Source: a bacterium (GTDB lineage Bacteria > SAR324 > XYD2-FULL-50-16). From it: a stretch of 64,000 nt of DNA. The position numbers and the translations under genes were made by a program. Of this stretch, positions 6,300-46,266 are shown in pieces. A model generated the notes under the pieces. The model did not search any database, was not told the DNA's origin, and saw nothing but the letters and a program-made list of their open reading frames with translations. The stretch lies in assembly GCA_018830885.1 (NCBI GenBank), contig JAHJRI010000189.1:20632-84631 (forward strand). The letters run 5' to 3'. Position 1 is the stretch's first letter. Each line of letters opens with the position of its first letter.

Positions 6300-6452
6300 T
6301 TAAGGACACCTTAATTCATTAAAATGATCGAACTTACAGCACCAAAGGGTTGATCTTTCAAGAAACGCACGAGTCCATCCATGGCTTCCAAGGTTCTTGA
6401 AAGATCAACCCTCTGATACGGACTGAGTTCCATCTAATCAAGGTGCCCTTAA
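6300..6452. repeat. Long imperfect palindrome in the mcd/sir2 divergent intergenic region
   Basis: Inner perfect 18-bp arms gggttgatctttcaagaa (6347-6364) and ttcttgaaagatcaaccc (6394-6411); outer arms ttaaggacacctt (6300-6312) and aaggtgcccttaa (6440-6452), 12/13 paired. Confidence 0.85.
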
Positions 6453-45857: not shown

Positions 45858-46042
45858 CGAATTCCTGTATATGTTTATTTGGGCCTGTTTTCAGAAGTTC
45901 TCCCTGAAAATCGATGATTGATATGAATTTAAACCATGGTTAGACTGTTTCTCTCTCTTTACCGTTTCAAAATCAAGTTGAAAAGACAGCAATGTCCGGT
46001 TAGGTTTTTGCACTCCATTAAAGACCTTTTGTCAACCGTTCC

Positions 46043-46162
46043 GTCAAGGGGCTACCGATTTAAAACATGAGGTGCGAGGCTCGCAGCACCGAACTGAAAC
46101 CATCCCTGGTGTTCCGGGAAAACGTCCTGTTTTCCCGGGTTTTAAAGCGCTAGCCCCTTGAC
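46043..46162. repeat. Nested palindromic element (outer 24-bp stem enclosing two hairpins)
   Basis: Outer gtcaaggggctaccgatttaaaac (46043-46066) / gttttaaagcgctagccccttgac (46139-46162), 22/24 paired; inner tgcgag/ctcgca within 46071-46090; inner ccgggaaaac (46114-46123) / gttttcccgg (46129-46138), perfect. Confidence 0.85.
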
Positions 46163-46209
46163 TCCACTGAAAACCGCGATTAATTGGACCTGAAGTTCAA
46201 AACAATGAT

Positions 46210-46266
46210 GTTGAAAAGCAGGTTATGGATTAATTGGGATTCATGCTGGTATCCCCTGTTTTCAAC
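46210..46266. repeat. Imperfect hairpin adjacent to the nested palindrome
   Basis: gttgaaaagcagg (46210-46222) / cctgttttcaac (46255-46266), one bulged base; inner gggat/atccc. Confidence 0.6.

Follow-up and report, generated by a model that had tools for sequence, protein, structure and literature searches.

The window analyzed here, a stretch of 64,000 nucleotides, comes from a genome of 7.4 Mb in 496 contigs (hereafter the window genome). It carries a strongly structured element between hemH (PF00762) and a TPR gene, which is where the original prediction had placed it. These two genes form a divergent pair, and the site is therefore a promoter-side region and not a 3' end. The 24-nt arms of the expected outer inverted repeat are present, 92% complementary and 72 nt apart, as are the short palindrome tgcgag-g-ctcgca at 46073-46085 and the perfect 10-bp hairpin (Table 1). 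The degree of structure was not overstated either, since the fold beats every shuffle, with z = -4.84 on the plus strand and z = -7.19 for the exact element on the minus strand. The limits first given (46043-46162, 120 bp) delimit a genuine structure but are too narrow, because they enclose only the internal core of a larger repeat unit, a 224-bp MITE with outer terminal inverted repeats (TIRs) and a target-site duplication (TSD).

Table 1. Parts of the element and a second core in the window, in window coordinates
Feature	Position	Strand	Basis or remark
Whole MITE (vehicle A)	45987-46210		Dispersed-copy flank comparison, TIR scan, element lengths, TSDs
Left TSD, TTGAAAAGA	45978-45986	+	8/9 identical to right duplication
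Right TSD, TTGAAAAGC	46211-46219	+	9 bp, the duplication length of the vehicle A family
Left outer TIR, CAGCAATGTCCGGTTAGGTTTTTGCA	45987-46012	+	Inner 22-nt pattern repeated in the genome
Right outer TIR	46196-46210	-	Sister-copy comparison; ~10 bp (CCTAACCGGA) deleted here
Core outer stem, 3' arm on minus strand	46043-46066	-	Inverted repeat, 22/24 paired
Core outer stem, 5' arm on minus strand	46139-46162	-	Inverted repeat and minus-strand fold
First minus-strand hairpin, CCGGGAAAAC-AGGAC-GTTTTCCCGG, GGA in loop	46114-46138	-	Sequence, core comparison, minus-strand fold
Second minus-strand hairpin, ACC-AGGGAT-GGT, GGA in loop	46099-46110	-	Sequence and alignment of diverse cores
Subfamily-specific insert with third palindrome, tgcgag-g-ctcgca	46068-46094	-	Interrupts or replaces conserved ATTCATGCG
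Second core copy in the window, shortened	6336-6422	-	Covariance model R1, 45.0 bits, E 9e-10

On the minus strand, the core consists of an outer stem around two hairpins whose loops each bear GGA and are 22 nt apart; in the window copy, the loops are AGGAC and AGGGAT. The second hairpin is absent from the minimum-energy fold of this copy, and its stem covaries in relatives (TCC/GGA, ACC/GGT, TAC/GTA, CCC/GGG). An additional 27-nt hairpin that disrupts ATTCATGCG marks the derived subfamily to which the window copy belongs; this insert, which holds the third palindrome, occurs in ~11 copies (136-bp type) and is missing from the 113-bp type. Covariance model R1, built for the core, gives the window copy just 23.4 bits, in a shifted register. 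By descent, the copy in this divergent promoter region is a derived member of the family, though it may itself be inert. In the shortened core at 6336-6422, the outer stem is CAAAGGGTTGATCTTTCAAGAA, both hairpins are merged into one, and no MITE outer ends were recognized.

The surrounding MITE and its mobilization

Comparison of the flanks of dispersed copies showed that sequence conservation extends beyond the 120 bp to the outer ends CAGCAATGTCCGGTTAGG...CCTAACCGGACATTGCTG. The unit in the window is thus a short noncoding element with TIR CAGCAATGTCCGGTTAGG, shortened on its right side, and it is flanked by TTGAAAAG(A/C) on both sides. It is not single copy: BLASTN against the window genome found dispersed relatives, including ~10 near-full copies at 92-96% identity, the 113-bp-type subfamily at 77-80% identity, and many partial copies, frequently at contig ends. 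Core-bearing sister copies are mostly 207-235 bp long. Allowing up to 3 mismatches, the genome contains 57 occurrences of the inner 22 nt of the TIR, whereas a reversed-pattern control yields 0. Nine-base-pair TSDs at least 8/9 identical accompany 10 of 20 own-genome pairs, compared with 0.3% in a control that paired flanks taken from different copies.

The same ends also carry other sequence. Seven elements in two family relatives have these ends around other interiors, and all seven have perfect 9-bp TSDs. Three loci in each of the relatives G011 and G018 combine vehicle A outer ends and perfect 9-bp duplications with very different interiors, from which it follows that the ends mobilize several unrelated cargoes. 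Three further loci in the same genome as the window hold small elements with similar ends and a different interior (TGTCCGATGTAAAACTTTTTCAG), apparently another MITE family.

One TIR copy (C297:9281) directly adjoins a decayed IS4-family transposase gene, on a contig that stops before the other TIR. This decayed gene is likely the source of the moving enzyme. Vehicle A resembles IS4-family insertion sequences in this similar TIR and in duplicating 9 bp, and differs from them in having only the outer ends in common; a search of the bacterial family of the window genome found no intact autonomous parent. Plasmid relatives of the C297 transposase are distant IS4 members. The vehicle A MITE has no match in plasmids or phages, nor does the core motif in viral contigs.

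One core in several vehicles and genomes

Weak core matches and a 22-nt core motif, which occurs at 190 places in the window genome at up to 3 mismatches and at none in controls, led to further MITE families in that genome. In vehicle B, the ends are GGGTGCACCAAAAACATGTG and the duplications are 8 bp long, matching at 7/8 or better in 11 of 12 elements. Vehicle C is bounded by GTAACTATTCAGC and likewise has 8-bp duplications, in 18 of 23; the copies counted include some in contigs of the "Deltaproteobacteria" MAGs co234_bin29 and CG_2015-17. The core architecture is common to all three vehicles, whereas their ends are unrelated and their TSDs measure 9, 8, and 8 bp in A, B, and C, respectively. 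The core thus occurs in at least three MITE families whose ends are unrelated, and model R1 detects at least 150 family members in the window genome. Ends of the A and C types occur too with no core detected, and some C elements hold a divergent core that the pattern missed. Within the window, positions 2572-2760 show vehicle C ends (GTATCTATTCAGC ... GGTGAATAG), seemingly without a core, and resemble a 193-bp element seen elsewhere (L035).

Beyond this genome, a 21-nt apex pattern found 67 stretches in GTDB genomes, where well under one is expected by chance. The carriers comprise mainly Gammaproteobacteria MAGs, strain 005FR1, Marinimicrobium, Marinibactrum, Desulfuromonadales, co234_bin29, and CG_2015-17. 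Among 98 relatives, R1 matches 6 of the 10 genomes of the family to which the window genome belongs and 0 of the 88 others, so the spread is patchy. In GC-rich gammaproteobacterial genomes, the core is free-standing, without MITE ends, and TSDs around these copies did not rise above control. Most lie about 20-35 nt beyond stop codons; counted against codon-scored genes, as were the contexts of own-genome copies, 27 of 50 have convergent neighbors and 2 of 50 divergent neighbors.

Several arrangements were seen among these copies. Strain 005FR1, Marinimicrobium, and the JAUHYP MAG have outward-facing inverted core pairs ~85-130 nt apart (L278-L283), each core with its own stem sequence, and after the pair at L279 comes a clear intrinsic terminator. 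A subset of gammaproteobacterial cores, at four loci, has a longer first hairpin (e.g., GGGCGCCGATGACCCGGCGCTC) and has lost the GGA loop. A wider outward-facing pair, 2.4 kb apart in a Gammaproteobacteria MAG (G004:C4), was considered as the bounds of an autonomous element and rejected, as it encloses small open reading frames only, none of them transposase-like. Between these two TwoAYGGAY matches (G004:C4:32700-36100), the small frames look by eye like a HicA/HicB toxin-antitoxin.

Bacterial MITEs with comparable features include QMITE1 and QMITE2 of Coxiella, which span 150-400 bp and have TIRs, TSDs, and a strong hairpin, and sRNAs have been reported from QMITEs (PMC5896051). Unlike such MITEs, the present elements share one structured core across vehicles with unrelated ends, and that core is also found outside MITEs in other phyla. 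A literature search for this element, by sequence string and by CsrA together with MITE, found nothing.

Covariation and strand asymmetry of the core

Neither of the two outcomes that would have spoken against the original prediction, a single copy and a lack of covariation, was obtained. In an alignment of 36 diverse cores, the outer stem varies almost everywhere yet remains paired around an apex that hardly changes, with changes on both sides at 32 of 32 pairs of the outer helix. Over the 37-pair structure, 92% of cells are paired (53.5% when shuffled), and the covariation score is 0.82, against 0.20 when shuffled and at most 0.29 when the partner is moved by one column. A caveat is that cores were found through their apex and their stems trimmed for complementarity, yet a stem of this kind was present in 100 of 110 cores. 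The aligned cores indicate that the stem is maintained by compensatory change across phyla.

The minus-strand loops include AUGGAU, AGGGAU, AUGGAC, and AGGAC. GGA is retained by 39 of 44 cores in the first loop, which lies outside the search key, and 39 of 44 have the two GGA motifs 22 +/- 1 nt apart. The near-invariance of ATTCATGCG elsewhere in the family arises partly by construction, as ATTCATGCG is in the search key.

The two strands are not equivalent. In the minus-strand (window) sense, non-Watson-Crick stem positions across 44 independent stems comprise 25 G-U and 4 A-C (p = 1e-4), under a mismatch scoring that favored neither strand. Such an excess of G-U over A-C on one strand suggests selection on RNA. 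A transcription-linked C-to-T artifact is made less likely as its cause by the counts of 7 versus 2 where both neighboring genes run antisense. A point against the explanation favored below is that, in same-direction gene contexts, the sense orientation of the core is not preferred (9 versus 12). With the one-strand tolerance of G-U as its main support, the pattern points to RNA, and not DNA alone, as what is under selection.

It is also conceivable that the element is purely selfish DNA, i.e., an ordinary MITE whose palindrome has no RNA role, whose arms are corrected by template switching, and whose likeness to TwoAYGGAY reflects common descent only. Own-genome copies, which have TSDs, are often deleted internally, and occupy all intergenic contexts without clear bias, would suit this account, as would the loss of the conserved ATTCATGCG from the window copy. 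However, arm-to-arm correction predicts as many G-U as A-C intermediates, which is not the ratio observed; loop sequences and spacing are preserved while stems change; and the core is found between unrelated ends as well as with no MITE ends at all. We regard this account as doubtful, though worth serious consideration.

Alternatively, the core might have begun as a gene 3'-end device, either a bidirectional terminator or an mRNA-stabilizing hairpin, that MITEs captured later. The GC-rich gammaproteobacterial copies, about 25-35 nt after stops, mostly convergent and free of TSDs, are what such an origin would lead one to expect. Against it, a symmetric hairpin needs neither a fixed asymmetric apex nor a G-U bias on one strand, and the window copy sits between divergent genes without a U-tract; taken together, these points make the 3'-end origin unlikely. 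An intrinsic terminator at the window locus is not supported in its own right, because the genes are divergent, no T-run follows the stem, and the only terminator-like match, a weak one of 5 bp, is near shuffle expectation. Of the original label "MITE/REP-type repeat," the MITE half stands on defined TIRs and 9-bp TSDs, whereas a REP/BIME-type element moved by a RAYT (Y1/HUH) transposase is highly improbable: the copies are palindromic, intergenic, and at times in outward-facing inverted pairs, but no Y1_Tnp was found in the genomes G001, G002, and G003, which hold 148, 42, and 53 copies, and the TSDs and TIRs of vehicles A, B, and C instead fit DDE transposition.

Relation to TwoAYGGAY and putative recognition by CsrA

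TwoAYGGAY (RF01731) has stood since 2010 as a candidate RNA without an assigned function. It shares Rfam clan CL00106 with CsrB, and CsrA has been proposed as its binder from motif matches (Gardner and Eldai, PMC4333381). The interior of the MITE belongs to a covarying, RNA-like family related to TwoAYGGAY, in keeping with the earlier mention of a structured RNA. Both have an outer stem around two hairpins with A(U/G)GGA(U/C) loops, an arrangement found here at the level of the family, and RF01731 matches core-bearing genomes in the minus-strand orientation. Its best scores are 51.8 bits in the Gammaproteobacteria MAG G004, the only one above the threshold of 43, followed by 38.9 bits in 005FR1 and 34.5 (about 35) bits in the window genome. 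The window copy and most other copies score below threshold; the window copy has no match to RF01731 at E<=10, and a search of the window and 12 loci at Rfam gathering thresholds gave no matches. In E-value mode, the window yielded only a snoRNA match, which was taken as chance. The present family also differs from TwoAYGGAY: its motif is dispersed at high copy number, it contains the conserved ATTCATGCG, its long stem covaries, and in this genome it travels as MITE cargo.

With CsrB/RsmY-type sRNAs, which sequester CsrA, the core family shares GGA or ANGGA in paired hairpin loops, and core variants such as UACAGGGAUGUA resemble the published CsrA consensus RUACARGGAUGU. Unlike those sRNAs, the core offers two putative sites per unit in many dispersed units and not in one sRNA gene. 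The window genome encodes csrA (C131:32609-32767, E 1.6e-26), as do 9 of 11 hosts overall; it was not found in the other 2, one of which is apparently a 68%-complete MAG. Judging from the paired GGA loops and these csrA genes, binding of the core by CsrA is plausible. The conserved, unpaired ATTCATGCG counts against a CsrA explanation, as CsrA binding gives no account of it.

Taken together, we favor, with a probability of roughly 0.6, a nonautonomous MITE with a two-hairpin, RNA-like cargo that is kept as a putative CsrA/RsmA-docking transcript. Under this explanation, copies would be moved in trans by transposases that recognize only the outer ends, which for vehicle A would be an IS4-type DDE transposase. 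The core would be retained since its putative transcript could adopt a three-way-junction fold that exposes two GGA loops at a distance of 22 nt, and these loops might form the docking site for a CsrA/RsmA dimer. Once transcribed, a core copy could sequester CsrA as a sponge or serve as a CsrA site within a 3' UTR.

What is added to earlier knowledge is a TwoAYGGAY-like core common to unrelated MITE vehicles and to free-standing 3' hairpins and bearing strand-specific marks of selection at the RNA level. The occurrence of TwoAYGGAY relatives as high-copy repeats, MITE cargo, and free 3' hairpins gives a tractable route to its function. A bolder picture, offered tentatively and rather unlikely in its entirety, is that of a hitchhiking RNA: a double hairpin, putatively bound by CsrA, would pass from one unrelated MITE vehicle to another and from phylum to phylum, selection on the RNA strand would preserve it, and it would supply well over 100 docking sites in a single genome. 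If CsrA binds the core, transposons would be spreading the docking site of a global regulator; and if the hitchhiking picture is true, a mobile element would titrate or rewire the posttranscriptional regulation of its host.
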